Of a stretch of DNA of 64,000 nucleotides, positions 1,451 through 37,212 are shown piece by piece. The stretch comes from Streptomyces sp. HUAS 15-9 (GTDB taxonomy: Bacteria > Actinomycetota > Actinomycetes > Streptomycetales > Streptomycetaceae): positions 8,370,001 to 8,434,000 of the forward strand of contig NZ_CP106798.1 of the NCBI RefSeq assembly GCF_025642155.1, in the 5' to 3' direction. The notes beneath the pieces were generated by a model, which had not been told where the DNA came from, did not search any database, and saw only the letters and a program-made list of their open reading frames with translations. Within the stretch, counting starts at the first letter, position 1, and every line of letters starts with the position of its first letter. The translations under genes were made by a program, and so were the position numbers.

Positions 1451-1486
1451 CGCGCGCTTTGAGTCGCTGTAAGGAGAGATGGAGCT

Positions 1487-13400: not shown

Positions 13401-14455
13401 GTCCTGTCGCCAACACCCGCGCGTTCGTGCTGGACGACTTCCTGCGCCCGGTACCGCCCGGAGCGGTGGGCGACCTGTATGTGGCGGGTGCCTCGCTGGC
13501 CCGCGGCTGTGCGGGCTGGCCCGGCCGGACGGGCTCGCGCTTCGTGGCATGTCCGTTCGGGCCCGCGGGGGCGCGGATGGTCCGTACCGGCGAGCGGGCG
13601 AAACGCACCGCCGAGGGCCTGATCGCCCTGCGGGACAAGAGGCAGGACCGGTACGGAGGTTCCGTGACGGCGCGCCGCAAGGTCCGCAATCGCGACGACC
13701 TGGAGGTGCTGCTGCCGCTGCGGGCCGAGGGCAGCCGCCCGCCGCTGTTCTGTGTGCACCACAGCACCGGTCTCAGCTGGGGCTATGCGGCCCTGCTCCA
13801 GCACCTGCCGTCGGACCTGCCGGTCTACGGCGTGCAGGCGCGTGGGCTGGCCGGGCCCGAGCCGCTGCCGCAGAGCATGGAGGAGATGGTCGCCGACTAT
13901 GTCGAGCAGATCCGGGGGCTGCAGCCCAGCGGCCCGTACCACCTCCTCGGCTGGTCCTTCGGCGGTGTGATCGCGCAGGCGATCGCCGCTCGTCTGGAGG
14001 AACTCGGTGAGCAGACCGCCCTGGTCGCCCTGCTCGACTCGTACCCCGCCGGGCTCGGCCGGGCCCTCGTCGGCGACGACGAGGCGGGGGAGACCCACTC
14101 GGCGCCGGAGCAGCGGCGCGAGTTCCACACCTCCCCGGACGGCGGCGAAATGCCGATGGGCGTGAGCGGTCCGCTGATGACCAGCATGGAGGAGGTCATG
14201 CGGAACGCGGTCGGCATCTCCCGCAACCACACGCCCCCTCGCTTCGGCGGTGACGTCCTGCTGTTCGTCGCGACCGAGGACCGGCCCGAGGACCTGCCGG
14301 TGGCGGAGGCGGTGGACAGCTGGCGTCCCTACACCGCGGGGGACGTCGTGGCGCACGAGATCGCCGCCGCCCACAACGACATGCTGCAGTCCGCGCATCT
14401 GGCGGACATCGGGCGCGTCATCACCGAGACGCTCCGGTCCGGGACCGACGCCTGA
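1487..14455 (+). CDS. Terminal trimodular NRPS with X domain, decayed A domain and thioesterase
   Basis: A cytoplasmic assembly line of 4,322 residues. Domain order (approximate residues): C 5-440 (HHVLMDG from His144), A 455-960, T with Ser994, C 1045-1490 (HHIASDG from His1182), A 1515-2020, T with Ser2055, C 2105-2560 (HHIASDG from His2244), A 2580-3080, T with Ser3118, X 3165-3630, decayed A 3640-4060, TE 4068-4322 with GWSFGG at Ser4157. The X domain has HRIAADD (His3299, Asp3304, Asp3305) in place of HHxxxDG. That substitution marks the non-catalytic X domain which recruits Oxy P450s to the bound peptide in glycopeptide assembly. The first C domain is probably a DCL type, matching the E domain upstream. 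No E domain is present. By hand alignment all three working A domains show the same pocket residues (DALVVGTVI plus Lys). The start is GTG, 8 bases after AAGGAGAG. The final peptide should be released by the TE. Confidence 0.95.
2003..2005 (+). promoter_or_regulatory. Rare TTA leucine codon in the NRPS
   Basis: Codon 173 of the large NRPS is TTA, in frame, within the residues TTAGLPRTT. In Streptomyces TTA is read only by the bldA-encoded tRNA, which is active late in development. A TTA codon in an antibiotic gene usually means that translation depends on bldA. The codon is read directly from the sequence; its regulatory effect is inferred. Confidence 0.7.
4403..4584 (+). repeat. Intragenic repeat, copy 1 (carrier-protein region)
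   Basis: This 182-base stretch covers most of the first carrier-protein domain. It is repeated at 7586-7767 with only two silent differences that I can see (GGC/GGT and GAC/GAT). Codon use inside it (GGT, GCT, TTG) is less GC-rich than around it. The near-identity points to recent duplication or gene conversion between modules. Confidence 0.85.
7586..7767 (+). repeat. Intragenic repeat, copy 2 (carrier-protein region)
   Basis: Second copy of the carrier-protein repeat at 4403-4584, over the second carrier domain. The third carrier domain is clearly different at the DNA level and reads DLGGNS instead of GLGGDS, so the homogenised pair is modules 1 and 2 of this protein. Confidence 0.85.
13323..13370 (+). 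repeat. Short tandem repeat in the decayed A domain
   Basis: A 21-base unit encoding SGEERAS occurs twice in a row and is followed by a partial third copy. It lies in the decayed adenylation region between the X domain and the thioesterase, where the A5 region would be expected. It looks like slippage in a segment no longer under strong selection. Confidence 0.7.
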
Positions 14456-18102: not shown

Positions 18103-18339
18103 ATGGAGGTACGGGTCGACCGCGACACCTGCCTGGGCACCGGCCAGTGCATGATGGCGGTGCCGGAGGTCTTCGACCAGTCCGACGACGACGGCAAGGT
18201 GCTCCTGCACACCGCGTCACCCGGCCCCGGACAGGTCACGGCGGTACGGATGGCGGCCGCCAGATGCCCGGCCGGCGCGATCACGCTACGGCACGACGAC
18301 GAGCACACGAAGCAGCCCAGCGCCTCCGAGGCGAGCTGA
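18103..18339 (+). CDS. Small iron-sulfur ferredoxin for the P450s
   Basis: A 78-residue ferredoxin with cluster ligands in CLGTGQC and a downstream CP pair (ARCPAGA). This is the pattern of the single-cluster [3Fe-4S]/[4Fe-4S] ferredoxins that serve Streptomyces P450s. It would pass electrons from a reductase to the P450s just upstream. No ferredoxin reductase gene is in the window, so a general cellular one must be used. The ATG at 18103 gives the normal family N-terminus (MEVRVDRDTC); GTG at 18085, overlapping the P450 stop, would add six residues. It is the last gene before a strong hairpin. Confidence 0.88.
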   Translation: MEVRVDRDTCLGTGQCMMAVPEVFDQSDDDGKVLLHTASPGPGQVTAVRMAAARCPAGAITLRHDDEHTKQPSASEAS

Positions 18340-18475: not shown

Positions 18476-19039
18476 ATGTTCACGACACGCAAGCGAGTCA
18501 TCTCGCAGACCTTAGTGGCCATGTCCGCAGTCATCCTCGGGTTTGGGTTGAGCGGCTGCTCCGGTGAGTCGGAGGCCCAGACCAATGACAATCCCAGTTC
18601 CTCGTCGTCCACTTCCGGTGCCGACCAGGCCGTGGCCTTCGCGCAGTGCATGCGTGAGAACGGCGTGCCCAAGTACCCGGACCCGGAGCCGGACAGCAAC
18701 GGCCGTGTCCGCATCGGTCCCGGCAGCGGCGTGGACCCGAACTCACCGGAGTTCCAGAAGGCGATGTCGGCCTGCCGCGACAAGATGCCGCAGGGCCAGG
18801 GCGGACCCAACGGCGGCACCGTCGACTCGGCGAAGGCCGCGGAGTGGGCCAAGTGCATGCGCAAGAACGGTCTGCCCAAGATGCCCGACCCCGAGATCAA
18901 CGGCAACGAACTGGTCGTGAACGTCGGCGACTCCGGCATCACGCCTGGCGACCCCGCGTTCCAGAAGGCGCAGCAGGCGTGCCAGGACAAGTTCCCCGGC
19001 GGCATGCTCAGGCTCGCGGGTCCTGGCGGTCCCCAGTGA
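18476..19039 (+). CDS. Secreted lipoprotein of the efflux operon
   Basis: A 187-residue protein with a basic N-terminus, a hydrophobic stretch and a lipobox ending in LSGC, so it should be lipid-anchored outside the membrane. The mature part holds two similar halves, each with a CMR-NG-P-PDP pattern (QCMRENGVPKYPDPEP and KCMRKNGLPKMPDPEI) followed by a helix with one Cys. Four Cys residues beyond the lipid Cys could form disulfides. Its stop overlaps the start of the adaptor gene by four bases (GTGA), so it is translationally coupled to an adaptor/MacB-like efflux set. Proteins of this kind commonly sit next to such ABC efflux genes in Streptomyces; their exact role is not known to me. Confidence 0.8.
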   Translation: MFTTRKRVISQTLVAMSAVILGFGLSGCSGESEAQTNDNPSSSSSTSGADQAVAFAQCMRENGVPKYPDPEPDSNGRVRIGPGSGVDPNSPEFQKAMSACRDKMPQGQGGPNGGTVDSAKAAEWAKCMRKNGLPKMPDPEINGNELVVNVGDSGITPGDPAFQKAQQACQDKFPGGMLRLAGPGGPQ

Positions 19040-20412
19040 CGTCCGAAGGCACGCATGAGCTGAACCGGGCAGGCGGTGAGCGCGGCGCCCTCGAACTCCA
19101 CGAGAACGCCGAGGCGGCGCGCGAGACCTCGAAGGCGCTGGCCGCGCAGGGCGACGACGGCACCCTCGCCGTCGCGGACGGCGGCGAGGGCGGTGAGGGC
19201 GGCGACGAGACGCCCGCGCCGGGCGCCCGCCGGCCGCGTCGGCCCGCCCGTCTCGCGATGATCGTGGTGATCGCCATCGCGGTCGCCGCGGCGGCCGGTG
19301 CCGCCGCCTCGGGCGCCTTCGGCGGTGACGGCGGCGGGTCCGCCGCCGCGGCCCCATCGGGCCCGCCGGCCACGGCGAAGGTGAAGCGCACCACGCTCAC
19401 CAGCACGGAGACCGTCGACGGCAACCTCGGCTACGGCGACGTCACCACGGTCAAGGCCCCGGGCTCCTCCGGCGGGAGCAGTGGTGCCAGCGGTGGCGGG
19501 CAGTCCTCGCAGGGCGACGGCTCGGCAGGCAGCGGCACCTCCGGCGGCGACTCCTCCTCCGGGACCATCACCTGGACGCCCGGCGAGGGCGACGTCATCA
19601 AGCGCGGCAAACCCGTGTACAAGGTCGACGAGGAGTCGGTGCCGCTGCTCTACGGATCCGTGCCCTTCTACCGCGCCCTGAAGGACGGTGTGGAGGGCAA
19701 CGACGTCAAGGTCCTGGAGCAGAACCTCGCCAAGCTCGGCTACACCGGATTCACCGTCGACGACGAGTACACCTCCGGCACCGCCGACGCCGTCAAGGAG
19801 TGGCAGAAGGACCTGGGCCGGGACGAGACCGGCGTCGTACAGCCCGGTGATGCCGTCGTGGCATCCGGCGCACGGCGGGTCTCCGCCGTGGACGCCTCAC
19901 CCGGCGACCAGTCGAGCGGCACCGTGCTGTCCTGGACGGGAACCGAACGCGTCATCACCGTGGACCTGGACGTCCAGTACGAGGGCCTGGTCCACAAGGG
20001 CGTCAAAGCCACCGTGGCCCTCCCCGACGACACCACGGTCGATGCCGAGGTGACGGACGTCGGCAGCCCGACCGCGCCCGCCAACAAGGACTCCTCCGGC
20101 AGCGGCAGCGACTCGAACGACAGCAAGACGCCCACTCTGCCCGTGGAACTGAAGGTCAAGAACCAGCACGACCTCGGCAGTTACCAGGCGGCCGGCGTCG
20201 ACGTCACCCTGAAGTCGCAGACCCGCAAGAACGTGCTCGCCGTGCCCATCAACGCGCTCGTCGTCCAGCCCGGCGGGCAGTACTCCGTGGAGGCCGTCAC
20301 GGACAAGGGCGTCGAGTACGTCCCGGTCAAGACCGGCATGTTCGCCGACGGCCTGGTCGAGGTGTCCGGCAGTGGCATCCACGAAGGGATGGAAGTGGGG
20401 GTCCCCAAGTGA
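19036..20412 (+). CDS. HlyD/MacA-like efflux adaptor with peptidoglycan-binding domain
   Basis: A 458-residue membrane-anchored adaptor. It has a charged, Gly-rich cytoplasmic N-terminus, one membrane segment (LAMIVVIAIAVAAAAGAAAS), a Ser/Gly-rich low-complexity insertion, a peptidoglycan-binding-like domain (VKVLEQNLAKLGY to AVKEWQKDLG) and a beta-rich C-terminal part typical of membrane-fusion proteins. The start is GTG at 19036, overlapping the lipoprotein stop. It should work with the ATPase and FtsX-like permease encoded directly downstream to move a substrate across the envelope. Position inside the cluster suggests that the peptide product or an intermediate is the cargo, but this is an inference. 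Confidence 0.85.
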   Translation: MTSEGTHELNRAGGERGALELHENAEAARETSKALAAQGDDGTLAVADGGEGGEGGDETPAPGARRPRRPARLAMIVVIAIAVAAAAGAAASGAFGGDGGGSAAAAPSGPPATAKVKRTTLTSTETVDGNLGYGDVTTVKAPGSSGGSSGASGGGQSSQGDGSAGSGTSGGDSSSGTITWTPGEGDVIKRGKPVYKVDEESVPLLYGSVPFYRALKDGVEGNDVKVLEQNLAKLGYTGFTVDDEYTSGTADAVKEWQKDLGRDETGVVQPGDAVVASGARRVSAVDASPGDQSSGTVLSWTGTERVITVDLDVQYEGLVHKGVKATVALPDDTTVDAEVTDVGSPTAPANKDSSGSGSDSNDSKTPTLPVELKVKNQHDLGSYQAAGVDVTLKSQTRKNVLAVPINALVVQPGGQYSVEAVTDKGVEYVPVKTGMFADGLVEVSGSGIHEGMEVGVPK

Positions 20413-21125
20413 CCCGACCCATCGTCGATCTGACCGGGGTCTCCAAGACGTACGGCGACGTGGTCGCGCTGCACGCCGTCGACCTGGTCATCCAGCGCGG
20501 CGAACTGCTCGCCATCGTCGGCCCGTCGGGCTCGGGCAAGTCCACGATGCTCAACATCATGGGCACGCTCGACCGCCCGACGGCCGGCACGGTGCGCATC
20601 GACGGCCACGACATCGACGACCTCAGCGACCGCGAACTGTCCGCGCTGCGCGCGGGCACCATCGGCTTCGTCTTCCAGCAGTTCCACCTCGCGCCCGGAG
20701 TCCCCGCACTCGACAGCGTCGCGGACGGACTGCTCTACAGCGGCATGCCGCGCTCCGAGCGCCGGCGGCTGGCGGCCCGCGCACTGCGGCGGGTGGGCCT
20801 CGGCCACCGGCTCTACCACCAGCCGCACCAGCTGTCCGGCGGCGAGAAGCAGCGGGTGGCCATCACCCGGGCCGTGGTCGGTGACCCGCCGCTGCTGCTC
20901 GCCGACGAACCGACCGGCGCGCTGGACTCCCGCTCCGGAGCGACCGTGATGGCGCTGCTGCACGAGCTGCACACGTCCGGGACGACGGTCCTGGTCATCA
21001 CCCACGACCGCGACATCGCCGCGTCCCTGCCCCGAGAGGTACGGGTCAAGGACGGGCGGATCGAGCACGATTCCGGACGTCGGCCGATACCGCTCGCCCG
21101 CGTCACCGAGGAGGTTGCGGGATGA
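20409..21125 (+). CDS. MacB/LolD-type ABC transporter ATPase
   Basis: A 238-residue ABC ATPase. It has Walker A GPSGSGKST, the signature LSGGEKQRVAI, Walker B LLLADEPTGALD and the switch His (VITHD). The pattern belongs to the MacB/LolD group that pairs with FtsX-like permeases. The GTG start overlaps the adaptor stop, and its own stop overlaps the permease start (ATGA), so the genes are tightly coupled. Confidence 0.93.
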   Translation: MTRPIVDLTGVSKTYGDVVALHAVDLVIQRGELLAIVGPSGSGKSTMLNIMGTLDRPTAGTVRIDGHDIDDLSDRELSALRAGTIGFVFQQFHLAPGVPALDSVADGLLYSGMPRSERRRLAARALRRVGLGHRLYHQPHQLSGGEKQRVAITRAVVGDPPLLLADEPTGALDSRSGATVMALLHELHTSGTTVLVITHDRDIAASLPREVRVKDGRIEHDSGRRPIPLARVTEEVAG

Positions 21126-22378
21126 GCGCGCTGGACATCACGAGCAAGCCCGAGGGGTCCGACGGCCCCACGGCACCCGCGCCCCGCCGGCCCAAGCCCG
21201 CCCGGATGGGGTTCGCGGACGTGGTGCGGGTCGGCGGCTCCGGACTGCGTTCGCGACCCATGCGGGTGTTCCTGTCGGCGCTGGGCATCGCGATCGGCAT
21301 CGCCGCCATGGTGGGCGTGGTCGGCATCTCCAGCTCGTCCACCGAGAACCTCAACCGCCGCCTCGCCGCACTCGGCACCAACCTGCTGACGGTCACCCCC
21401 GGCCAGACCCTGGCCGGCGACTCCGCGCACCTGCCGGAGGAGTCCATCGGGATGATCGCCAACAACCCGTCCGTCGAGTCCGTCTCGGCCGTCGGCAAGA
21501 CGACGGCCAAGATCTACCGCAACGACCACATGCCGAAGGAGGAGACCGGCGGCCTCAGTGTCAACGCCGCACGCCTGGACCTGCTGAAGTCCATCGGCGG
21601 CGAGGTCGTCGACGGTCAGTGGCTCAACAAGGCGAGCAGCCGCTACCCCGCGGTGGTCCTCGGATCCCACACCGCCGAGCAGTTGGGGGTCTACCGGGCG
21701 GGATCCGACGTACGGGTCTGGCTCGGCGGCCGCTGGTACACCGTCGTCGGTCTGCTCGCCCCCAACGAACTGCTGCCCGCGATGGACTCCGTGGCCCTGG
21801 TGGGCTGGCCCGTCGCCGAGAAGCAGCTGGACTTCGACGGCTACCCGACGACGATCTACACGCGGGCCGACGAGTCCGCCGTCACCGAGGTCCAGGGCGT
21901 ACTCGGCGCCACGGCCAACCCGGAGAGCCCCGGCGAGGTCGATGTCTCCCGGCCCTCCGACGCGCTGGCCGCCAAGGAGGCCACCGACGACGCCCTGAGC
22001 GGCCTGCTGCTGGGACTAGGCGGCGTGGCGCTGCTGGTCGGCGGGGTGGGCGTGGCCAACACCATGGTCATCTCCGTCCTCGAACGGCGCGCCGAGATCG
22101 GGCTGCGCCGCTCCCTCGGCGCGACCCGCGGCCAGATCCGCACCCAGTTCCTGTCCGAGGCGCTGCTGTTGTCCGGCCTCGGCGGCGTCGGCGGGGTGCT
22201 GCTGGGCATCGCGGTCACCGGCGGCTACGCCGCCTACCAGAACTGGCCCTCCATCGTGCCGGTCTGGGCGATGGCGGGGGGCGTCGGGGCCACCCTGGTC
22301 ATCGGCGGTCTGGCCGGCTTCTATCCGGCCGTACGAGCGGCCCGACTGCCTCCGACCGAGGCGCTGGCCGCCCACTAG
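21122..22378 (+). CDS. FtsX/MacB-like ABC transporter permease
   Basis: A 418-residue permease with the MacB topology: one N-terminal membrane segment (RVFLSALGIAIGIAAMVGVV), a large extracytoplasmic domain, and three C-terminal membrane segments around LLLGLGGVALLVGGVGVANTM, LLSGLGGVGGVLLGIAV and GATLVIGGLAGFYPAV. The conserved ERRAEIGLRRSLGATRGQI loop that contacts the ATPase is present. It is last in the lipoprotein-adaptor-ATPase-permease operon. Confidence 0.92.
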   Translation: MSALDITSKPEGSDGPTAPAPRRPKPARMGFADVVRVGGSGLRSRPMRVFLSALGIAIGIAAMVGVVGISSSSTENLNRRLAALGTNLLTVTPGQTLAGDSAHLPEESIGMIANNPSVESVSAVGKTTAKIYRNDHMPKEETGGLSVNAARLDLLKSIGGEVVDGQWLNKASSRYPAVVLGSHTAEQLGVYRAGSDVRVWLGGRWYTVVGLLAPNELLPAMDSVALVGWPVAEKQLDFDGYPTTIYTRADESAVTEVQGVLGATANPESPGEVDVSRPSDALAAKEATDDALSGLLLGLGGVALLVGGVGVANTMVISVLERRAEIGLRRSLGATRGQIRTQFLSEALLLSGLGGVGGVLLGIAVTGGYAAYQNWPSIVPVWAMAGGVGATLVIGGLAGFYPAVRAARLPPTEALAAH

Positions 22379-22685: not shown

Positions 22686-24905
22686 ATGGCGGTACGGGGG
22701 GCCGGCGGGACGACGTCGGCACGGCATGGCACGGCCCGCGTGCCGGACGACGTCCTGGCCGCAGAGGAGCGCGCCTGGGCGTCGAACCGCGAGGCGCTGT
22801 CCCGGGCGGGGCTGCGCCAGGGGACTTCGGGAGCGGCCGGCCTGCCCGATACGGCGACCAAGATCCTCGACCGTACGTGGGTCGCGCCGCTGGCCGTCGG
22901 GCCCTTCGCCGCGCCGACCCGTCTTCAGGACGAGATCGCCGTGGTCGAGGCGGCCGGCGCCGCTGGTCTCCCGGCCGTCGTCAGTGCGTACGGCGCACGC
23001 GAACTCCCTGACGTGACGGCGGCCGTCGGCCCGGCCCCCTGGCTGCGACTCCCCGGCGTGGATGACCGGGAGGCGGCCCTGGGCCTCGCCCGCCGCGCGC
23101 CGGCAGCCGGGTTCGGCGCACTGCTGGCGACGCCCGACCACCTCGGGCTCCCTGCCCTCGTGGCAGTACGCGAGGCCGCTGGACTTCCGCTCCTCGCCGC
23201 GGGCATCGGCACGGCCGTGGACGTCGTACGAGCGCTCGACGCGGGTGCCGAGGGCGTCCTGGCCGCCTCCTTGCACACGCTGCCGGAGATCGCGGCGACC
23301 GTCGCGGGACGTTGCCCCGTCCTGCTCGACGGCGGCATCCGGCGCGGCGCCGATGTGCTGGTGGCCCTCGCCCACGGAGCCGACGCGGTGCTGCTCGGCC
23401 ACCTGGCCGTTGCCGAACTGCTCGCCGACGGGCCCGAGGGCCTGCCGCGGGCCCTGGACCGCCTCGTCGCGGAACTGACCGAGGCCATGGCGTTCACCGG
23501 AACCGGCACGGTCGCCGACGTACGGCCCGAGGTGGTGGCCGGACTGGGCACCGTGGTCGCGGCCCACTTCGCGCATCCGGCCCCTGCCGCGGCGGGGCCG
23601 CAGCCTCCGCCCGTCCTGCGCAAGACAGACCTGCACGCCAGCGTCTCGGACCCGGTCCTGGACACCATGAACTTCCTCAACGAGGTGACGTTCCGCTACC
23701 CCGACGCGATCTCCTTCGCACCCGGCCGCCCCTACGACGGGTTCTTCGCCACCGAACAGATCTTCACCCACGTCCGTGGCTATCTGGACCACTTGGCCGA
23801 ACAGGGCGCCTCGGAGCAGGACATCCGCACCGCGATGTACCAGTACGGCCCGACCGCCGGTCGGATCCGTGAGATCCTCGCCGACTCCCTGCGCGTCGAC
23901 GAGGGCATCGACGTCCCCGCCGAGTCCCTCGTGGTGACCGTCGGCGCCCAGGAGGCCATGCTGCTCGTGCTGCGCGCCCTGATGGCGCGGCCCGAGGACG
24001 TGCTGCTGCACGCCAGCCCGTGCTACGTGGGCATCACCGGCGCGGCCCGGCTGCTCGACGTCCCCGTGCGTGGCGTCGAGGAGCGCGCGGACGGGGTCCA
24101 CTGTGCCGACGTCGAGGCCGCGATCCACGATGAGCGCGCCCGAGGGCGCCGGCCCCGTGCGTTCTACGTGGTCCCCGACCACTCCAATCCGTCCGGGACC
24201 ACGCTGAGCCTCGAAAGCCGTACCGAACTGCTGGAACTGGCCGACCGGCACGGCATCCTGATCCTGGAGGACAGCCCGTACCGGCTGGTCAGCCCCGGGC
24301 CGCCGCTGCCGACGCTGAAGTCGCTCGACCGAGCGTGCCGTGTCGTGCACCTCGGCTCGTTCTCCAAGACCGTCTTCCCCGGCGCCCGGGTCGGGTTCGT
24401 CGTCGCGGATCAGCGGGTCGTGGACGACTCCGGCCGCACCGGACTGCTCGCCGACGAACTCGCCAAGATCAAGAGCATGGTGACGGTCAACACCTCGTCC
24501 CTCGGCCAGGCCGTTGTCGCGGGCACCCTGCTGGCTGCCCGGGGCCGGGTGTCGGAGCTCAACTCCGGCCCCGCCGCGTACTACGGCGGCTCCATGCGCG
24601 CCACGCTCGAACAGCTCGATCGGCGCCTGCCCGCCGCCCGCAGGGAGACCCTCGGCGTGCGGTGGAACAGGCCCACCGGCGGATTCTTTCTGCGGGTCGA
24701 GGTGCCCTTCGAGGCGGACGACGCGGCTCTGACCCGGTCCGCGGAGGGATTCGGTGTCATCTGGACGCCGATGCGCAACTTTCATCCGCACGGCGGCGGC
24801 CATCGCGCCCTCCGCCTGTCCACCAGCTATCTGACGCCCGAGGAAATAGAAGAGGGCATCGGGCGGCTCGTCCGCTTCATCGAAGCGGAAGCAGAGGCGT
24901 CCTGA
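22686..24905 (+). CDS. Fusion of decayed hydroxymandelate oxidase (Hmo) and HpgT aminotransferase
   Basis: A 739-residue two-part protein. The C-terminal half (about 310-739) is a complete PLP aminotransferase of the HpgT type. It has YGPTAGRIREILAD, VVPDHSNPSGTTLS, the Lys of GSFSKTVFPGARVGFV, and ALRLSTSYL. HpgT makes 4-hydroxy- and 3,5-dihydroxyphenylglycine from the glyoxylates. The N-terminal half aligns with FMN-dependent hydroxymandelate oxidase but lacks key parts. The loop between the third and fourth strands is shortened, the FMN-contacting Lys of the VLKGI region is Ala (LLAAGI), and the SNHGGRQ segment with the catalytic His and Arg is deleted between GVLAA and SLHTLPEI. That half is probably inactive. 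Hmo-HpgT fusions are known, for example in the enduracidin cluster. The ATG at 22686 follows GGGGGA by five bases. Upstream TTG at 22671 is an alternative start. Confidence 0.88.
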   Translation: MAVRGAGGTTSARHGTARVPDDVLAAEERAWASNREALSRAGLRQGTSGAAGLPDTATKILDRTWVAPLAVGPFAAPTRLQDEIAVVEAAGAAGLPAVVSAYGARELPDVTAAVGPAPWLRLPGVDDREAALGLARRAPAAGFGALLATPDHLGLPALVAVREAAGLPLLAAGIGTAVDVVRALDAGAEGVLAASLHTLPEIAATVAGRCPVLLDGGIRRGADVLVALAHGADAVLLGHLAVAELLADGPEGLPRALDRLVAELTEAMAFTGTGTVADVRPEVVAGLGTVVAAHFAHPAPAAAGPQPPPVLRKTDLHASVSDPVLDTMNFLNEVTFRYPDAISFAPGRPYDGFFATEQIFTHVRGYLDHLAEQGASEQDIRTAMYQYGPTAGRIREILADSLRVDEGIDVPAESLVVTVGAQEAMLLVLRALMARPEDVLLHASPCYVGITGAARLLDVPVRGVEERADGVHCADVEAAIHDERARGRRPRAFYVVPDHSNPSGTTLSLESRTELLELADRHGILILEDSPYRLVSPGPPLPTLKSLDRACRVVHLGSFSKTVFPGARVGFVVADQRVVDDSGRTGLLADELAKIKSMVTVNTSSLGQAVVAGTLLAARGRVSELNSGPAAYYGGSMRATLEQLDRRLPAARRETLGVRWNRPTGGFFLRVEVPFEADDAALTRSAEGFGVIWTPMRNFHPHGGGHRALRLSTSYLTPEEIEEGIGRLVRFIEAEAEAS

Positions 24906-25044: not shown

Positions 25045-26202
25045 ATGACCGTCAATGTCGCAATTCCTGAAGCGCCGGAAGCGGATCTGCTCGGGTCCCC
25101 GGTCCCGGTCGGCGTGCGCCTCGACCCGGCCGCGGCCCGTCCGCGGATGATCGGCGTCGGTACGGCCGCGCCCGCCACCTCGTACACGCAGCAGGAGGTG
25201 CTCGACGCCTTCGCCATCACCGATCTCAGGATCCGCTCGGTCTTCATGAACAGCGCGATCGAGCGTCGGCACCTGGTGCTGCCCCCCGCGGACGAGACGG
25301 GGGTGCGGGTCTCGGAGCCGCAGGGCGATCTCCTCGACAAGCACAAGCGGTCGGCGGTCGAGATGGGGGCGGAGGCCCTGCGGGCCTGTCTGAAGCGGGC
25401 CGGCGCCGAGCTGTCCGACCTGCGCCATCTGTGCTGCGTCACCTCCACCGGCTTCCTCACCCCCGGGCTGAGCGCCTTGCTCATCAAGGAACTCGGCATC
25501 GACCGCCACTGCGGCCGCTCCGACATCGTCGGCATGGGCTGCAACGCGGGCCTGAACGCCCTGAACGTGGTGGCGGGCTGGTCCGCCGCGCACCCGGGCG
25601 AGCTCGCCGTCGTACTGTGCGCCGAGGCGTGCTCCTCGGCGTACGCCATGGACGGGACGATGCGCACCGCCGTCGTCAACAGCCTCTTCGGCGACGGCGC
25701 CGCCGCCGTCGCGCTGATCAGCCAAGGCGCCCACGGGCCGGGCGGGGCGGCCGGCGGCGAGGGCCCCGGCATCCTGAAGTTCGCCAGCTGCATCATCCCC
25801 GAAGCGGTCGACGCCATGCGCTACGAATGGGACCGCGACCAGGGCAGGTTCAGCTTCTATCTCGACCCCCTCATCCCGTATGTGGTCGGAGCCCATGCCG
25901 AGATCGTCGTCGACCGCCTGCTGGAGGACACCGGGCTGCGGCGCAGCGACATCCGGCACTGGCTGGTGCACTCCGGCGGCAAGAAGGTCATCGACGCCGT
26001 CACCGTGAACCTCGGGCTGACCCGGCACGACGTGCGCCACACCAGCGGTGTGCTGCGCGACCACGGCAACGTCTCCAGCGGCTCGTTCCTGTTCTCCTAC
26101 GAGCGGCTCCTCGACGAAGGCGTCACCAGGCCCGGCGAGTACGGCGTCCTCATGACGATGGGGCCCGGCTCCACGATCGAGACGGCGCTGGTCCGATGGT
26201 GA
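25045..26202 (+). CDS. dpgA: DpgA, 3,5-dihydroxyphenylacetyl-CoA synthase (type III PKS)
   Basis: A 385-residue type III polyketide synthase. It joins four malonyl-CoA units to form the 3,5-dihydroxyphenylacetyl-CoA precursor of the amino acid Dpg. The catalytic Cys is in GMGCNAGLNALN (Cys166), with the His in HWLVHSGGKK and the Asn in RDHGNVSSGSFLF. These motifs and the dpgB-dpgC neighbours identify it as DpgA and not a general chalcone-synthase homologue. The ATG at 25045 gives the usual length; the frame is open further upstream, and an in-frame GTG at 25027 is possible. The 139 bases before the gene hold no other gene. The stop overlaps an ATG of the next frame. Confidence 0.95.
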   Translation: MTVNVAIPEAPEADLLGSPVPVGVRLDPAAARPRMIGVGTAAPATSYTQQEVLDAFAITDLRIRSVFMNSAIERRHLVLPPADETGVRVSEPQGDLLDKHKRSAVEMGAEALRACLKRAGAELSDLRHLCCVTSTGFLTPGLSALLIKELGIDRHCGRSDIVGMGCNAGLNALNVVAGWSAAHPGELAVVLCAEACSSAYAMDGTMRTAVVNSLFGDGAAAVALISQGAHGPGGAAGGEGPGILKFASCIIPEAVDAMRYEWDRDQGRFSFYLDPLIPYVVGAHAEIVVDRLLEDTGLRRSDIRHWLVHSGGKKVIDAVTVNLGLTRHDVRHTSGVLRDHGNVSSGSFLFSYERLLDEGVTRPGEYGVLMTMGPGSTIETALVRW

Positions 26203-26216
26203 GCGCGGAGGGCGTG

Positions 26217-28180
<1,964 letters not shown>

Positions 28181-28212: not shown

Positions 28213-29013
28213 ATGCCGGTTGCCCGCATCAACGGGATCAACCTCGCTTACGACGACCACGGCACGGGGGATCCCGTCGTGATGGTCACCGGCACCGGAG
28301 CGCCGGGCCGGATGTGGCGCACCCACCAGGTGCCCGCCCTCAGAGCGGCGGGCCACCGGGTGATCACACTCGACAACCGGGGCATCCCGCCGAGCGATCC
28401 GTGCCCGGACGGATTCACGCTCGACGCCATGGCGGCGGACGTCGCCTCGCTCATCGACCACCTCGGCATCGGCGCGTGCCGGATCGTGGGCTTCTCGCTG
28501 GGGGCCGTCGTCGTCCAGGAACTGCTCGTGGCTCGGCCGGAGTTGGTGCGGCAGGCCGTGCTGATGGCCACCACGGCCAGAGCCGACGCCCTCACCGACG
28601 CCATGACAGCCGCTGAGCTGGAACTCTGCGACAGCGACATCAAGGTCCCGCCGCGTTACGCGGCCTACGTACAGGCGCTGCAGAACCTCTCGCCCGCCAC
28701 GCTCAACGACGAGGCCCGGCTGCGAGACTGGCTCGACGTCTTCGAGATGTCGATGGTCGACCTCGCGAGCGTGCGCGGACAGCTGGCGCTCCAGATGATC
28801 CCGGACCGGCGGCCCGCGTACCGGGCCATCGCATGTCCGTGCCTGGTGATCGGATTCGGCGACGACCTGGTCATGCGGCCCCGTCTGGCCAGGGAAGTGG
28901 CCGACGCCATCCCACGGTGCCGCTACACCGAGATCGCGGGGTGCGGCCACTACGGATATCTGGAGAAGCCGGAAGCGGTGAATTCCGCGATCGTCGACTT
29001 CTTCGCCGCATAA
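28213..29013 (+). CDS. Alpha/beta hydrolase next to dpgABC
   Basis: A soluble 266-residue alpha/beta hydrolase. The nucleophile is Ser95 in GFSLGA, a likely acid is in GFGDDLV, and the His is in [12 protein letters not shown] near the C-terminus. The oxyanion region is [10 protein letters not shown]. It starts 32 bases after dpgC with GGGGG upstream, and is followed by mbtH. Its substrate is unknown. Two reasonable roles are a thioesterase-like helper in Dpg formation, taking the place of the absent DpgD, or a proofreading/release enzyme for the NRPS. Context supports membership in the cluster but does not decide between these. Confidence 0.85.
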
Positions 29014-29077
29014 CACACACGTGTTTCCCAAGGCATTTGCGCACGTTCCGTGCGACAACCATCTGACGGGAGTGATC

Positions 29078-29302
29078 ATGACCAACCCCTTCGACGACGA
29101 GAACGGCTCCTTCCTGGTGCTCGTGAACGACGAGAACCAGCACTCGCTCTGGCCGGTGTTCGCCGAGGTACCGGCGGGCTGGCGGACCGTCTTCGGCGAG
29201 AGCAGCCGCAAGGAGTGCCTCGACTACATCGAGGAGAACTGGACGGACATGCGTCCGCAGAGCCTCATCGACGAGATGAGCAAGTACGAGACCGCCAACT
29301 GA
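29078..29302 (+). CDS. MbtH-like protein
   Basis: A 74-residue MbtH-family protein, which binds NRPS adenylation domains and is often needed for their solubility and activity. The family hallmarks are present: [33 protein letters not shown] and [11 protein letters not shown]. The ATG at 29078, five bases after CGGGAG, gives the normal start. It most likely serves the A domains of the NRPSs in this cluster. Confidence 0.95.
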
Positions 29303-29351: not shown

Positions 29352-31535
29352 GTGGCCATGATGGGTGGCCCGGGACCGGTGTTGATCCACGGGGAAGGGC
29401 CGGAGACGCCCTCGGGCAAGATGCGGGTCAAGCCCGGCACGGCGAAACGGATCGTCCCCTACGCACGGCCATACCGCGGCATCATCAGCGCTCTCCTGGC
29501 CATTACCACGCTGAACGCCGGCATCACCGTGGCGATGCCGCTGATGTTCAAGTACCTCATCGACGACGGAATCGCCGACCACGACAAGTCCGTCGTCGTG
29601 TGGATCGCCGTCGCGGTGGGCGTACTGGCCGTCGCGGCGGCCTTCCTCGCTTACGCCGAATCCTGGTTCTCGGCACGGGTGAGCGAGGGCCTCGTCTACG
29701 ACCTGCGGACCCGCGTCTTCGACCATGTGCAGCGGCAGCCGATCGCGTTCTTCACCCGGGCACAGACCGGCGCCCTGGTGAGCCGGCTCAACACCGACGT
29801 GGTCGGAGCGCAGCAGGCGTTGACGAACCTGTTCGCCACGGTGGTCTCCGCAAGCCTCACCCTGGTCTTCGTCCTCGTCACGATGTTCTATCTGTCGTGG
29901 GAGATCACCGTCATCTCGCTGTTGCTGCTGCCGTTCTTCGTGCTGCCGGGCAGGATCGTCGGCCGCCGACTGCAACGGCTGCTGCGCCAGCACATGCAGA
30001 TCAACGCCGAGATGGGCTCGATGATGAACGAGCGCTTCAACGTCACCGGGGCGCTCCTGGCGAAGCTCTACGGCCGTCCCCACAGCGAGACACGGCTCTT
30101 CGCCGGTCTTGCGGGCCGGAGCCGGGACGTCGGAGTGCGCAACTCCGTGTCCATGAAGATGCTGTTCATCACGAACATGCTGGTGATGTCGCTGGCCACG
30201 GCCGTGGTCTACGGTTTCGGCGGGTCCATGGCCATCGACGGCGCGTTCCAGATCGGCACGCTGGTGGCGATGGCCACGCTGCTCACCCGGCTGGGCGCGC
30301 CGATCGGCCAACTGTCCAATGCCCAGGCGGATGTGATGACCGCGCTGGTCAGCTTCGACCGGCTCTTCGAGGTGCTCGACCTCAAGCCGCTGATCGCGGA
30401 GAAGCCGGACGCGGTGGCACTGCCGTCCAGAGCCGCACCGGAGGAGAAGGCGCCGGAGATCGAGTTCGGCAATGTGTCGTTCCGTTACCCGAAGGCGTCG
30501 GAGGTCTCGCTGGCTTCCCTGGAGTCCATCGCGATGCCGACGCGGGAACGCGACAGTGACGCATGGGTGCTGCGCGACCTGAACTTCACCGCGCCCGCGG
30601 GCAAGCTGACCGCGCTGGTCGGCCCGTCGGGCGCGGGCAAGACGACCATCACCCACCTGGTGCCACGGCTCTACGACCCGATGGAGGGCACCGTCCGCAT
30701 CGGCGGGCGCGACATCCGCGACCTGACGCTGGAGTCGCTGCACGACACGGTCGGCATGGTCACCCAGGACGCCCACCTCTTCCACACCACACTGCGGGAG
30801 AACCTCCTCTACGCCCGCCCGGAGGCGACCGAACAGGACATGATCGAGGCGTGCAGGGCGGCGCAGATCTGGGAGCTGATCGAGTCGCTGCCCGACGGGT
30901 TCGACACCGTGGTCGGCGACCGCGGCTACCGGCTGTCGGGCGGGGAGAAACAGCGCATCGCCATGGCCCGGCTGCTGCTGAAGGCACCGCCGATCGTGGT
31001 GCTCGACGAGGCCACCGCACATCTCGACTCCGAGTCGGAGGCGGCGCTGCAGCGGGCGCTGAAGACCGCGCTGGCGGGCCGGACCTCGCTGGTGATCGCA
31101 CACCGGCTCTCCACCATCCGGGACGCCGACCAGATCCTCGTCATCGACGACGGGCAGGTCCAGGAGCGCGGCACGCACGACGAGTTGATCGCGCGCAACG
31201 GCCTCTACGCCGAGCTGTACCGCACACAGTTCTCGCGGCACGACGACGCGCCGCTGCCGGAGCCGGCGCCCGAGCGTACTCCCGAACCCGCGGGCGCCCC
31301 CGGTCCGGGCTACCACCACTTCGGTCCCGGGGCCGGTGCGCCGGACCTCAGCCGGGCCGTCCCCGGCGGGCCTCCTCCGATCTTCCATCACCACGGCCCG
31401 CCCCCGGGCGGCGGCCCGGACGGTGCCGACGGCGCAGGGCCTGGGCGGTCCCGGGCCGGTCCACCACCACAACGGACCCTCCGGGCCTCGCAAGAGGTGA
31501 CGGCACGGGCCGACGAGAACGGCACGCCACCGTAA
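29352..31535 (+). CDS. ABC exporter with fused membrane and ATPase domains
   Basis: A 727-residue half-transporter that should work as a dimer in the cytoplasmic membrane. A six-helix membrane domain (about 40-320) is followed by an ATPase with Walker A GPSGAGKTT, signature LSGGEKQRIAM, Walker B IVVLDEAT and the switch His in VIAHRLS. Exporters of this type occur in glycopeptide clusters and are taken to secrete the product. The C-terminus has an unusual tail of about 100 residues rich in Pro, Gly and His, predicted to be disordered. GTG at 29352 was chosen because CAGAGG lies eight bases upstream; ATG at 29358 and GTG at 29343 are alternatives. It is the last plus-strand gene of the cluster. 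Confidence 0.92.
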   Translation: MAMMGGPGPVLIHGEGPETPSGKMRVKPGTAKRIVPYARPYRGIISALLAITTLNAGITVAMPLMFKYLIDDGIADHDKSVVVWIAVAVGVLAVAAAFLAYAESWFSARVSEGLVYDLRTRVFDHVQRQPIAFFTRAQTGALVSRLNTDVVGAQQALTNLFATVVSASLTLVFVLVTMFYLSWEITVISLLLLPFFVLPGRIVGRRLQRLLRQHMQINAEMGSMMNERFNVTGALLAKLYGRPHSETRLFAGLAGRSRDVGVRNSVSMKMLFITNMLVMSLATAVVYGFGGSMAIDGAFQIGTLVAMATLLTRLGAPIGQLSNAQADVMTALVSFDRLFEVLDLKPLIAEKPDAVALPSRAAPEEKAPEIEFGNVSFRYPKASEVSLASLESIAMPTRERDSDAWVLRDLNFTAPAGKLTALVGPSGAGKTTITHLVPRLYDPMEGTVRIGGRDIRDLTLESLHDTVGMVTQDAHLFHTTLRENLLYARPEATEQDMIEACRAAQIWELIESLPDGFDTVVGDRGYRLSGGEKQRIAMARLLLKAPPIVVLDEATAHLDSESEAALQRALKTALAGRTSLVIAHRLSTIRDADQILVIDDGQVQERGTHDELIARNGLYAELYRTQFSRHDDAPLPEPAPERTPEPAGAPGPGYHHFGPGAGAPDLSRAVPGGPPPIFHHHGPPPGGGPDGADGAGPGRSRAGPPPQRTLRASQEVTARADENGTPP

Positions 31536-31542
31536 GGAAAAA

Positions 31543-31585
31543 CCGACGTGCCCGAGGCGGGGGAGCCCCGCCGCGGGCACGTCGG
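31543..31585. terminator. Bidirectional terminator between exporter and sulfation operon
   Basis: A long nested hairpin: CCGACGTGCCCG (31543-31554) pairs perfectly with CGGGCACGTCGG (31574-31585), and inside it GGCGGGG pairs with CCCCGCC. It lies seven bases after the exporter stop and before the facing stop of the sulfotransferase gene, so it can end both transcripts. Confidence 0.8.
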
Positions 31586-31603: not shown

Positions 31604-32263
31604 TCACCCGGCCGGTTCCGCCGTGCTGCCGGCGGCCCTGAGCCGGGCGAGCTGCGCGGTGAAGGCCGCCCGGTCGTTGCTGCGCGGGAAGGGCTCGTCG
31701 GGGGCGGGCACCCCGAGGAACGCACACAGCGGCTCCCAGCCCTGGCCGACCTCGAAGACCAGCAGCCGTGCGGGGTCCAACTCCCGCTTGACCGCGGCAA
31801 TATGCCCCTCGTAGACGTCCAGGGCGTGCTGCCGGTCGGTGAACCGACCGCCGAAGACGCCGTCCCAGACGACGTCGAGCGACATCTGCCGCACCCGGGC
31901 GAACAGCGGATCGGCGTCATCGGGCAGCGGCGCCACGGCGGCGGCGTGGATGCTGCTCTCGGCGCTGGCGTACCAGGCGTCCGGGTCGCGTTCGGTGAGG
32001 ATCACCTTCGCCTCGGGGAAGGCGGCGGTGATCTGCCGCCAGAAGGCGGCGCCCGGCCAGTCGACGCCCGACCGGTAACCCTGGTACACCCGCGTCCAGT
32101 CGACCGGCTCCCCGCGTGCGGCGGCCTGCCACAGCGCAACGGTGTCCGGGTCCTCGAACAGGCCCAGCATGTGATGGCACGGGCCGAACCCGAGCCGCTC
32201 CAGAGCCTTCTTGAGCGACAGGGTTCCGGTGCGCCCGAAGCCCACGCCGAAGATCTCCAGCAT
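31604..32263 (-). CDS. PAPS-dependent sulfotransferase (Cpz8-like)
   Basis: A 219-residue cytoplasmic sulfotransferase. The 5'-phosphosulfate loop is GFGRTGTLS (residues 8-16) and the 3'-phosphate region is ILTERDPDAWYAS (88-100), both as expected for PAPS-using enzymes of the short family. The ATG at 32263 follows GAGGAGAG. It is the last gene of a three-gene minus-strand operon after an arylsulfate sulfotransferase and a type III PKS. In caprazamycin the equivalent enzyme (Cpz8) moves sulfate from PAPS to the phenolic product of the type III PKS. I infer the same role. Direct sulfation of the peptide, as StaL does in A47934, is the alternative. Confidence 0.82.
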   Translation of the reverse strand: MLEIFGVGFGRTGTLSLKKALERLGFGPCHHMLGLFEDPDTVALWQAAARGEPVDWTRVYQGYRSGVDWPGAAFWRQITAAFPEAKVILTERDPDAWYASAESSIHAAAVAPLPDDADPLFARVRQMSLDVVWDGVFGGRFTDRQHALDVYEGHIAAVKRELDPARLLVFEVGQGWEPLCAFLGVPAPDEPFPRSNDRAAFTAQLARLRAAGSTAEPAG

Positions 32264-32298
32264 TGTCTCTCCTCATGTCGTACGGGTCTTACGGGTGT

Positions 32299-33345
32299 TC
32301 ACGCGCCGCGCAGCAGCACCGCCCAGATCGTGGCGCCGGGCCCGAAGGCCAGGACGACGCCGTGCTCTCCGGGGGCCAGCGGCCGGGCCGCCTGCAGTTG
32401 CTGCAGCACGCCGAGGACGGCCGGGGCCGCGGTGTTGCCGTAGGCACGCATCGCGGCGCGGGCCACCGCCATGGAGTCCTCGGGCAGTCCGATCGCCTCC
32501 TCGACGCGGTCCAGGATGCGCCGGCCGCCGGGATGCACGGCCCACCAGACCACGTCGCCCCAGGCGAGACGATTCCTGGCCAGCAATGCCTTGGCCGGGA
32601 CGCCGACGGCCGCGGCCACGACGTCCGGCATGGTGGGGGCGAGCCGGATCCGCAGCCCGAGGTCGCCGACGTGCACCTGGAGGTCCTCGGCATGTGCCGG
32701 GACGGTCAGTTGCTCGGCGTCGACCACCTGCGCCCCGGAGGTACCCCGCTTGTCCTTGTCGGGCAGCAGCACGACCGCCGCGGCCCCGTCGCCGAAGAGT
32801 GTCCACACCACCGCCGCCTCCTTGTCGTAGGGCGGCGGCTGCATGTGCGGCGAGAACAGGTCCACGGCCAGCAGTACGGCGGGCCTGCGCCGGGCCGCGA
32901 CCCAGTGCGCGCAGGCGGTCAGGGCCGGCAGGGCCGCGTAGCAGCCCATCGGACCGAGGGAGAGGATCTCGACGTTCTCGCGCATGCCGAGTGCCGGGGC
33001 GAGGGCGTCCAGGCCGGGGGCCGAGTGGGTCGTGGTGGTGACGGTGGCCAGCAGCCCGACGTCCCGTGCGCGCAGTCCGGCCCGGCCGAGCGCCTCCAGC
33101 ACCGCCGCCCCGCCCAGCCGGGAGGCCTCGGCGAGGCCGCGGTCCATCCGCTGCCGGGTCGACCACCACCGTGGGTCCTCGACCAGCACGTTGACCGCCA
33201 TGCCCTTGGTGGAGATGGCCGAATTGCCGACGACCTTGGCGATGGCGAAGCCGCCGACGTCGGAGGCGACATGACCCGCCAGCTCCGCCATCTTCACCAG
33301 CGGCGGCGTCCGGAAGGAGAGCGCCGCGATCCGTGCGTGCGTCAT
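32299..33345 (-). CDS. Type III polyketide synthase (Cpz6-like)
   Basis: A 348-residue chalcone-synthase-family enzyme with an intact Cys-His-Asn triad: Cys135 in SLGPMGCYAALPAL, His271 in WAVHPGG and Asn304 in AYGNTAA. It differs clearly from DpgA in the same cluster (Cys context GPMGCYAA against GMGCNAGLNALN). It lies between the two sulfotransferase genes, 12 bases from one and 35 from the other. In the caprazamycin cluster the matching enzyme, Cpz6, makes phenolic or pyrone polyketides that act as sulfate carriers. Its own starter and product cannot be told from sequence. Confidence 0.88.
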   Translation of the reverse strand: MTHARIAALSFRTPPLVKMAELAGHVASDVGGFAIAKVVGNSAISTKGMAVNVLVEDPRWWSTRQRMDRGLAEASRLGGAAVLEALGRAGLRARDVGLLATVTTTTHSAPGLDALAPALGMRENVEILSLGPMGCYAALPALTACAHWVAARRRPAVLLAVDLFSPHMQPPPYDKEAAVVWTLFGDGAAAVVLLPDKDKRGTSGAQVVDAEQLTVPAHAEDLQVHVGDLGLRIRLAPTMPDVVAAAVGVPAKALLARNRLAWGDVVWWAVHPGGRRILDRVEEAIGLPEDSMAVARAAMRAYGNTAAPAVLGVLQQLQAARPLAPGEHGVVLAFGPGATIWAVLLRGA

Positions 33346-33357
33346 CGCGACCCCCGC

Positions 33358-34917
33358 TCAGCGGACGCCGGACGCGGCGGCGCCGACGGGTGTGACGGGC
33401 GAGCTGTCGATCACCTTGCCCCGCTCGTCGAGCGCCTGGACCTGGAGCCGTGCGGCGTCACGAGCGCCGGCGGGCAGCTTGATCGGCGTGTCGAAGCCGT
33501 CCCAGGCCGCGGTCGCGACCGGCTTCAGGCCGCCCTGCGGTCCACCGGCGAGCAGCTGCCAACGGGCCACGTCCGAGGCGCCGTTCCAGTTGGCCCTGAC
33601 CACACCGGAGGCGGCGTTCTCGACGATGAGCTCGGGATTGGTCAGCGGCCGGCCCTTCCAGCCGAGCCGGTAGGCGCGGTAACTGCTGCCGTTGTAGGGG
33701 AACGTGGCGTCGAACAGCAGCCTGCCGTCGCGCGAGAACTCCGACATACGGCCGGGCCCCGCCACGCCCCAGCTCACAAAGGTGTCTCCATTGTTCAGCG
33801 CCTGACTGTTGCCCTCCACGGGGCTCGACATCAGTTTCGGGTGGACCTGCTGGCGTATCAGCTTCGACGTGCCGTGAGCGGGGTCGATACTGATCCACGC
33901 CACCCGCGACTCGTAGCCCTCCAGACCGCGCCGCGTGCCATTGTCGAAGACGCGGTAGGTGTGGTGGCCGACGGCCCGGACATCGTGCTGCCAGCTGAAA
34001 CGTACGCCCGCGCCGAGCCGGAAGTCGCTGTGCCGCCCGCCCAGCCGCCAGATGATCCTGCCGGTGCGACGGTCCACCTTGTAGATCGTGCTGGCCCCGT
34101 TGCCGGAGACGAGCAGGTTCCCGTCGGAGTCGACGTCGACGGAGTTCACATGCAGGTAGTCGTAGGGGACGGTGCTGCCGGGGGCGGGCCGGAAGTCGGA
34201 GTCGGTGAGCGGGACATGCTCCAGGCTGCTCCAGTTCATCACCTTCTTGCCGGTGGCGATGTCTATCTCCTGCACGACGCTGTCGACGACCGAGCCGTCC
34301 TTGGGCCCGCCGTACTGGCTCAGGTCGTACGGCTTCTGCTGGTAGCTGACGATGAGCGCGGTGCCCTGCGGAGTCAGCAGGAACTCGTGAAGGTCCATCA
34401 CCTCGCCGGGATCCGGTGTCTGCACCGTGGCGATGATCTCGTAGTTCTGGTTGGCGATGTATCCGATGCCGGAGCCGACACCGGTGTTCGTGGACTCGCC
34501 CTCCCACCACGTCAGCACCTTCTGCCCGTGGTACTCCTGCACACGGAAGTCGCTGGCGAAGTTGCCGTCCGGTACCTTGCGGAACCAGATGGGGCGGCCG
34601 CGGTCATCCATGATCTGCGGCCCGCGCGCAAACTCGGTCTGCCCCTGGGCCGTGACGAAGAGGTCTCCCTGGGCCCGTCCCGGGCGACGGACCAGTACGT
34701 CGACGGGCGGCGGCTCGTCCACCGCCGATGAGGCGACGTCTCCCGGACGCAGCGCGGAGCCGATGCGCGCGGCGCCCGAGCCATGGGTGGAGACGGCCGA
34801 CGTGGCAGCTGTGGCGGCCGCTGCCCGCACGGCCGGGGTTCTGCCTGTGCTGTTGGACACGACCACCATCAGGGCGGTCGCCGCTAACGCGGTACAGGTC
34901 CGGAGCCGATGAGCCAT
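33358..34917 (-). CDS. Secreted arylsulfate sulfotransferase (PAPS-independent, Cpz4-like)
   Basis: A 519-residue protein of the arylsulfotransferase (ASST/Arylsulfotran_2) family, with an N-terminal export signal (RTCTALAATALMVVVSNS) followed by an Ala/Thr-rich linker. Repeated beta-propeller-like segments carry conserved His residues: VMDLHEFLLTPQGTALI, DYLHVNSVDVDSDGNLL, IIWRLGG and FSWQHDVR. ASST enzymes move sulfate from an aryl sulfate to another hydroxyl through a sulfo-His, without PAPS. It is the first gene of the operon with a type III PKS and a PAPS-dependent sulfotransferase. By analogy with caprazamycin Cpz4 it would take sulfate from the aryl-sulfate carrier and pass it to the final product outside the membrane. 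The exact catalytic His was not fixed here. Confidence 0.85.
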   Translation of the reverse strand: MAHRLRTCTALAATALMVVVSNSTGRTPAVRAAAATAATSAVSTHGSGAARIGSALRPGDVASSAVDEPPPVDVLVRRPGRAQGDLFVTAQGQTEFARGPQIMDDRGRPIWFRKVPDGNFASDFRVQEYHGQKVLTWWEGESTNTGVGSGIGYIANQNYEIIATVQTPDPGEVMDLHEFLLTPQGTALIVSYQQKPYDLSQYGGPKDGSVVDSVVQEIDIATGKKVMNWSSLEHVPLTDSDFRPAPGSTVPYDYLHVNSVDVDSDGNLLVSGNGASTIYKVDRRTGRIIWRLGGRHSDFRLGAGVRFSWQHDVRAVGHHTYRVFDNGTRRGLEGYESRVAWISIDPAHGTSKLIRQQVHPKLMSSPVEGNSQALNNGDTFVSWGVAGPGRMSEFSRDGRLLFDATFPYNGSSYRAYRLGWKGRPLTNPELIVENAASGVVRANWNGASDVARWQLLAGGPQGGLKPVATAAWDGFDTPIKLPAGARDAARLQVQALDERGKVIDSSPVTPVGAAASGVR

Positions 34918-35164: not shown

Positions 35165-35689
35165 CTACGAATCCGGCCGGGTCAACCGGCGCAGCGCCGA
35201 TTCCAGGATTTCCGCCGTGCTCCTCGATGCGTCCACCGTGAGTCCGGGCTCGTCGGCCTGCAGCGGTTCCAGCGTCTCAAACTGGGAGTTGAGCAGTTTC
35301 GGGGGCATGAAGTGCCCCTTCCGGCGGGCGATCCGCTCTGCCGCCACGTCAGGGTCCAGGGCCAGATGGAGAAACTGGACGTTCGCCCCGGTGCGGCGAA
35401 ACTGATCCCGGTACGCGCGTCTGAGGGCCGAACATGACACGACTCCGCCCCGCTCTCCGGCAGCCGTCCGGATCCAGGCGGTGAGGGCTTCCAGCCAGGG
35501 TCGGCGGTCCGCCTCGTCGAGGGGGTGCCCGGAGGCCATCTTGGCGCGGTTCGCGGCCGGATGGAGATCGTCACCTTCCAGGAACGGCACGCCGAGACGT
35601 TGCGCGAGCAGCGTTCCGACCATGGACTTCCCGGATGCCGACACACCCATCACGACCACCACCGGCGAATGCCCGACGGGCCTGGTCAA
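35165..35689 (-). CDS. gntK: Gluconokinase
   Basis: A 174-residue P-loop kinase that phosphorylates gluconate to 6-phosphogluconate. It has Walker A GVSASGKS and the family motifs FLEGDDLHPAANRAKMASG, VVSCSALRRAYRD and GHFMPPKLLNSQFETLEPL. The TTG start at 35689 was chosen because AGGGAGG lies four bases upstream and it gives the normal family length; the frame is open further but the added residues look non-coding. A PQQ-type sugar dehydrogenase nearby could supply gluconate, which makes this kinase a sensible neighbour. Confidence 0.9.
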   Translation of the reverse strand: MTRPVGHSPVVVVMGVSASGKSMVGTLLAQRLGVPFLEGDDLHPAANRAKMASGHPLDEADRRPWLEALTAWIRTAAGERGGVVSCSALRRAYRDQFRRTGANVQFLHLALDPDVAAERIARRKGHFMPPKLLNSQFETLEPLQADEPGLTVDASRSTAEILESALRRLTRPDS

Positions 35690-35708
35690 CGGGCCTCCCT
35701 GCCGACCC

Positions 35709-37043: not shown

Positions 37044-37212
37044 GTCGTCGGGCCCGTCCTCGTTCAGCGGTAGCTGTGCAGGTCAAGGGTATGAGCACGG
37101 CAGCATCCGGGCGAGTCGGACGCCGTGAATCACTTGAATGGGCCAACTCGCCGGAAATATCGCCTGGAGATACCTTTGTGTGGGAGCCCAGGACCCGAGG
37201 GCGGTGGCCGAG

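Follow-up and report, generated by a model that had tools for sequence, protein, structure and literature searches.

A candidate caprazamycin-type sulfation cassette beside a glycopeptide-like biosynthetic cluster in Streptomyces

Three co-directional genes at the end of a glycopeptide-like, vancomycin-related biosynthetic cluster of a soil bacterium are read here as a two-step sulfation operon of the caprazamycin kind, the likely acceptor being a phenol of the exported peptide; the probability of this reading is put at roughly one half. The combination of genes suggests that this peptide may be sulfated extracellularly via a small carrier molecule. The genes are located in a window of 64,000 nucleotides, the whole stretch of DNA that was analysed (G000:C1:8370001-8434000), which belongs to a Streptomyces genome of 9.6 Mb in three contigs, designated G000. 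Among the best named protein matches were those of Streptomyces sp. NPDC001435, with 93% for the arylsulfate sulfotransferase of the cassette and 97% for DpgA of the cluster.

Genes and proteins of the cassette

The cassette is encoded on the minus strand and comprises genes for a PAPS-independent arylsulfate sulfotransferase (ASST; 33358..34917, 519 aa), a type III polyketide synthase (PKS; 32299..33345, 348 aa) and a small PAPS-type sulfotransferase (ST; 31604..32263, 219 aa). The original prediction of three closely spaced genes was exact in its coordinates: all three frames are open, with gaps of 12 nt between ASST and PKS and 35 nt between PKS and ST. The enzyme assignments made there, including the PAPS dependence of ST and the intact Cys-His-Asn triad of PKS, agree with the protein comparisons as well.

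ASST matched PF14269 (Arylsulfotran_2) at 5.1e-52, and its nearest relative among solved structures is its homologue Cpz4, including the reaction-intermediate structure 9kf6, at 38% identity. All 42 sequences of an alignment keep His177, His256 and His311, and almost all keep Arg291; the same His and Arg residues are present in Cpz4, and they are probably the catalytic residues. By eye, an AGGAG site precedes the start codon and the N-terminus resembles a Sec-type signal; residues 1-52 have a pLDDT under 50. ASST is presumably secreted.

PKS, a candidate counterpart of Cpz6, carries the chalcone/stilbene synthase domains PF02797 (3.7e-22), PF00195 and PF08392. Its triad Cys135/His271/Asn304 is unchanged in every row of a 32-row alignment, and this triad-bearing type III PKS is found in one operon with both sulfotransferases. 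The locus has a second type III PKS, DpgA, and in a tree built without Cpz6 a branch with 100/100 support lies between the two. Cpz6 did not occur as a name in the 120 PKS matches listed, in which names are shortened.

ST matched PF17784 (Sulfotransfer_4) at 2.1e-63, and a phmmer search of solved structures returned 9kf1/9kf2, entries titled Cpz8, at E 1.1e-61 and 48-50% identity. A loop of the form G-x-G-x-GRTGTLSL is conserved across four sequences. The predicted structure of ST is poor (pLDDT 42.6), and a fold search with this model only named 9kf1/9kf2; the homology to Cpz8 is therefore based on the sequence match. In the Pfam scan, Sulfotransfer_1 was not matched by ST at E <= 0.001. As this family is taken here to define the StaL-type glycopeptide sulfotransferases, ST does not appear to be one of them. 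An APS kinase (PF01583) is encoded in the source genome, and the supply of PAPS is therefore plausible.

The adjoining glycopeptide-like cluster

Between positions 31535 and 31604, where the last plus-strand gene of the peptide cluster and the cassette face each other, a hairpin (31543..31585) was predicted with folding energies of -47.6 kcal/mol on the plus and -50.4 kcal/mol on the minus strand. It is probably a bidirectional terminator at the exporter/cassette boundary, in line with the shared terminator proposed originally. The facing gene encodes an ABC exporter with membrane and ATPase domains (29379..31535, start approximate; PF00664, PF00005).

All further cluster genes given here with coordinates are also on the plus strand. 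Upstream of the exporter gene are those for an MbtH-like NRPS chaperone (29072..29302; PF03621, 3.8e-31) and the Dpg block, consisting of DpgA (25147..26202; NF042429, 652.8 bits, cut-off 425), DpgB (26196..26876; NF042431, 307.7 bits, cut-off 140), DpgC (26873..28180; NF042432, 734 bits, cut-off 530) and an alpha/beta hydrolase (28213..29013), of which 73-76% identical copies occur near Dpg genes in related clusters. A fusion of an FMN dehydrogenase with an aminotransferase (22740..24905; PF01070 and PF00155) is presumably, by name, of the Hmo-HpgT type. It is preceded by a MacB-type exporter block (18632..22378) of a small protein without Pfam match, a peptidoglycan-binding adaptor, an ATPase and a permease. 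PF01471, PF12704 and PF02687 were found for adaptor and permease, and the ATPase was assigned by eye; such a block is also present at the end of related clusters. A ferredoxin gene (18103..18339; PF13459) follows three genes for Oxy-like cytochromes P450 (14503-15681, 15780-16907 and 16919-18088). The 3' portion of the NRPS genes occupies 65..14455, with PF00668 in 65-1450 and more modules upstream of the window.

The glycopeptide-like character of this neighbour, which had been claimed from the start, is well founded. DpgA, DpgB and DpgC all exceed their NCBIfam cut-offs, and 11 A-domain core motifs are distributed over three NRPS genes. For the first and third P450, the two that were searched, the best solved relatives include Oxy proteins, as expected for cross-linking; the second resembles both by eye. 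An X-domain-like HRIAADD motif was recognized by eye downstream of the final carrier site and ahead of the thioesterase, and it may mark an X domain in the last NRPS module. At the far end of the peptide cluster, genes for a response regulator and for a sensor kinase were noted by eye.

On its right, the cassette is flanked by genes for a gluconokinase (35165-35833), an NADH-dehydrogenase-like protein of the pyridine nucleotide-disulfide oxidoreductase family and a GMC oxidoreductase-like protein (37138-38799), all of which look unrelated. For related loci, and in part for the window, genes were called with a simple composition-based caller, so that small genes and the positions of start codons are approximate; the gluconokinase gene escaped this caller, and the 5' end of the ASST gene was clipped.

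Distribution of the cassette and of glycopeptide-type clusters

Relatives of PKS were searched in a genus sample of 392 genomes, that of the window included. At E <= 1e-40 they were detected in 17/392 genomes, only five of which showed 73% identity or more: G000, Streptomyces sp. F001 (G219, with identical proteins), S. phytophilus (G074), G071 and G207. In all five, ASST and ST genes adjoin the PKS gene, and the cassette proteins of the window and F001 are 77-85% identical. Outside the sample, the cassette was found in S.PNR 29 and S. aculeolatus DSM 41644, bringing the genomes examined to seven. Between 118 ASST and 87 PKS list entries, 22 contigs could be matched by equal record length, and the joint recurrence of PKS and ASST is thus supported. 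A second genus draw of 389 genomes, in which the listed genomes overlapped the first sample, yielded three matches, all known, and no further cassette genome. In a class-level survey of 246 genomes, seven others were hit at E <= 1e-60 with at most 48% identity, and the plasmid search returned one record at 39%.

Originally, a survey was asked for of whether the cassette stays with the NRPS in related genomes. It does so in terms of joint presence in a genome, the cluster or at least DpgA being found in 7/7 cassette genomes examined, but it does not always do so in terms of position, adjacency having been seen in the window and F001. In F001, the cassette ends a glycopeptide-like cluster in convergent orientation to the MacB-type exporter, with the Dpg block on the other side, so that gene order differs from that of the window. 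In the other five of the seven (G071, G207, S. phytophilus, S. aculeolatus and S.PNR 29), the cassette had no NRPS next to it in the stretch read, which was about 10 kb on each side in S. aculeolatus and S.PNR 29 and one side only in S. phytophilus. In G071 and G207, about 2.8-2.9 Mb separate the cassette from DpgA. All five harbor DpgA at 83-86% identity. NRPS and exporter genes were also read in four of them, G071, G207, S. aculeolatus and S.PNR 29, in the last case on two contigs; in S. phytophilus, DpgA and exporter fragments alone were seen.

Within the sample, DpgA at 84% identity or more is present in 5/5 cassette genomes, compared with 22/392 genomes overall at 82% or more. The hypergeometric probability of this coincidence is 3.5e-7, or 6e-6 without the window, at a threshold of 82% that was picked after the table had been seen. 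With a looser marker, DpgA at E <= 1e-80 (55/392 genomes, 54/391 without the window), it is 3e-4 without the window. It becomes 0.003 when each of the other two lineages in the sample is entered a single time, which is the sole correction for relatedness. Seventeen of the 22 marker genomes, for example G117, have no cassette; surroundings were read in ten of these, and a Dpg block with MbtH, ABC exporter and NRPS genes was recognized in six. S. fumanus and Streptomyces sp. KR55, which possess cassette-type proteins, were not among the best 120 of 1271 DpgA rows.

Conservation of the cassette at the same site in strains without the NRPS had been named originally as evidence against a link to the peptide, and it was not observed in the genomes analysed. 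The survey was anchored on the GMC oxidoreductase gene, which has relatives of 71-89% in 12/60 other genomes. Around these relatives in G024, G018, G033 and G004, four of six genomes fetched, neither the cassette nor the NRPS of this cluster was seen. The sole shared neighbour above 50% identity was found in G018, where a protein related to the NADH-dehydrogenase-like one (64%) is encoded close to the GMC gene.

As an alternative, the cassette could be an independent unit that carries out both sulfation steps for an acceptor of its own, such as another metabolite, a glycolipid or a wall component, and it would then adjoin the cluster in two genomes by chance. The clusters of F001 and S.PNR 29 are closely related (DpgA 91%, MbtH 96%, ABC exporter 94%, DpgB 83%), but their cassettes are 81-86% alike and located in different places; therefore, cassette and cluster do not move as a single block. 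An acceptor of its own would fit the mismatched divergence of cassette and cluster, the cassettes without NRPS in the stretches read in S.PNR 29 and in the S. aculeolatus group, and the PKS relatives of 55-70% identity in Actinomadura, Actinoallomurus, Spirillospora and Plantactinospora among the matches listed. Yet it leaves unaccounted for a glycopeptide-type DpgA in every one of the seven cassette genomes and the convergence of the cassette with a cluster end in two of them. This alternative is possible, though on balance doubtful.

Relation to known systems and proposed mechanism

The system closest in composition is Cpz4/Cpz6/Cpz8 from the caprazamycin producer Streptomyces sp. MK730-62F2, reportedly first described by Tang et al. 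in 2013, which has the three enzyme types in common with the window. The proposed likeness to this shuttle stands as far as Cpz4 and Cpz8 are the nearest solved relatives of both sulfotransferases and a triad-bearing type III PKS is encoded between them; the comparison covered Cpz4 and Cpz8. The two systems differ in their surroundings, a liponucleoside cluster for caprazamycin and a glycopeptide-like NRPS in the window.

Sulfation of a cross-linked peptide, the outcome expected for the window too, is known from the PAPS-dependent enzymes StaL and Teg12-14. These presumably belong to Sulfotransfer_1, whereas ST of the window is a PF17784 protein without a match to that family and is partnered by an ASST. 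A corbomycin-type (type V) cluster in G117, apparently Streptomyces sp. WAC 01529, which is taken here to be the corbomycin producer, shares the Dpg block, MbtH, ABC exporter, NRPS, P450s and MacB-type exporter with the window. In the window 11 A-domain motifs were counted, and, unlike the window, G117 yielded neither a PKS nor an ASST of the cassette type under the thresholds applied.

That the pairing of such a cassette with a glycopeptide cluster is new, as first supposed, is too strong a statement, since lone ASSTs are already in print for the glycopeptide clusters aba of Amycolatopsis bartoniae (Aba19) and TEG (Teg19), as stated in the available part of PMC11727664. In that text, Aba19 is reported to share 39% identity with LpmB and Cpz4. 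These clusters are described as having three more sulfotransferase genes, which belong to the sulfotransfer_1 superfamily, and the portion available names no type III PKS besides the DpgA orthologue. What Aba19 and Teg19, as described there, have in common with the window is an ASST in a glycopeptide cluster (PMC11727664, in part). Searches of the open-licence literature, mostly at the level of listings, turned up no case in which ASST, type III PKS and Cpz8-like ST together adjoin or accompany a glycopeptide-like cluster. Thus, ASSTs in glycopeptide clusters are known, and the addition of a dedicated type III PKS and a Cpz8-like ST is apparently new, as judged from these searches.

In the mechanism proposed, PKS would form a small phenolic pyrone in the cytoplasm, where ST would sulfate it with PAPS as donor. 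After export of this putative carrier, ASST, itself exported, would take the sulfate from the aryl sulfate onto an active-site histidine and pass it to the final acceptor outside the membrane, most likely a phenol of the cross-linked, glycopeptide-like peptide after its export. In this peptide, phenols would be the obvious groups to receive sulfate. Against a phenol of the peptide stand the preference of Cpz4 for sugar hydroxyls over phenols, reported in the available part of PMC13426309, and the lack of a match to a glycosyltransferase family among the cluster proteins scanned, a subset of the genes.

Sulfation could also end at the polyketide, with ASST shifting sulfate between phenols or stripping it and the peptide uninvolved. 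A phenol sulfate should be obtainable from PKS and ST alone, and ASSTs are described as accepting many phenols (PMC13426309, part of the text), but the best relatives of both sulfotransferases come from a pathway for which transfer to the antibiotic is described (PMC4257720, as far as available), and this possibility is regarded as improbable. A cassette that is merely carried along at the cluster edge, inactive or silent, is very improbable given three open frames, conserved catalytic-type residues and the similarity of its proteins to their F001 counterparts.

The preferred reading, sulfation of the exported peptide, can be widened to a glycopeptide-like class that receives its sulfate extracellularly from a polyketide-borne shuttle, whose cassette changes its site yet is kept by peptide-making hosts; this is advanced tentatively, at a little under even odds. 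If true, the sulfate shuttle of the liponucleosides would amount to a tailoring device of general use that can be transferred, and there would be an account of how a peptide becomes sulfated after export. The cassette would then also offer a defined gene set towards sulfated glycopeptide analogues and give grounds to seek +80 Da forms where only the parent peptide was sought.

Additional ASST genes in cassette genomes

The genome of Streptomyces sp. HUAS 15-9 encodes another, distant ASST (40% identity; G000:C1:5620693-5622147). Three further cassette genomes each contain an additional ASST gene, located at G071:C1:6194649-6196148, G207:C1:1809409-1810929 and, in S. phytophilus, G074:C1011:4382-5608, the products being 56-60% identical to the ASST of the window across the three genomes. 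For G071 and G207, PKS or ST genes of the cassette type were not found adjoining the second ASST gene within the stretches read.

Cassette surroundings and exporter block

In the window, the cassette is adjoined by a GntK-type gluconokinase gene (35165-35833; TIGR01313). The four-gene MacB-type exporter block (18632-22378) occupies a terminal position in several such glycopeptide-like clusters, and it is also present at the cluster end in the cassette-less genomes G117, G270 and G303.

Arrangement in strain F001

In Streptomyces sp. F001 (G219:C2:884219-898099; gene functions assigned by eye), the exporter and the cassette are separated from the halogenase-like gene by an integrase-like gene, a gene for a signal-bearing protein of 3031 aa and a transposase-like gene. 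This arrangement hints at rearrangement in this stretch.
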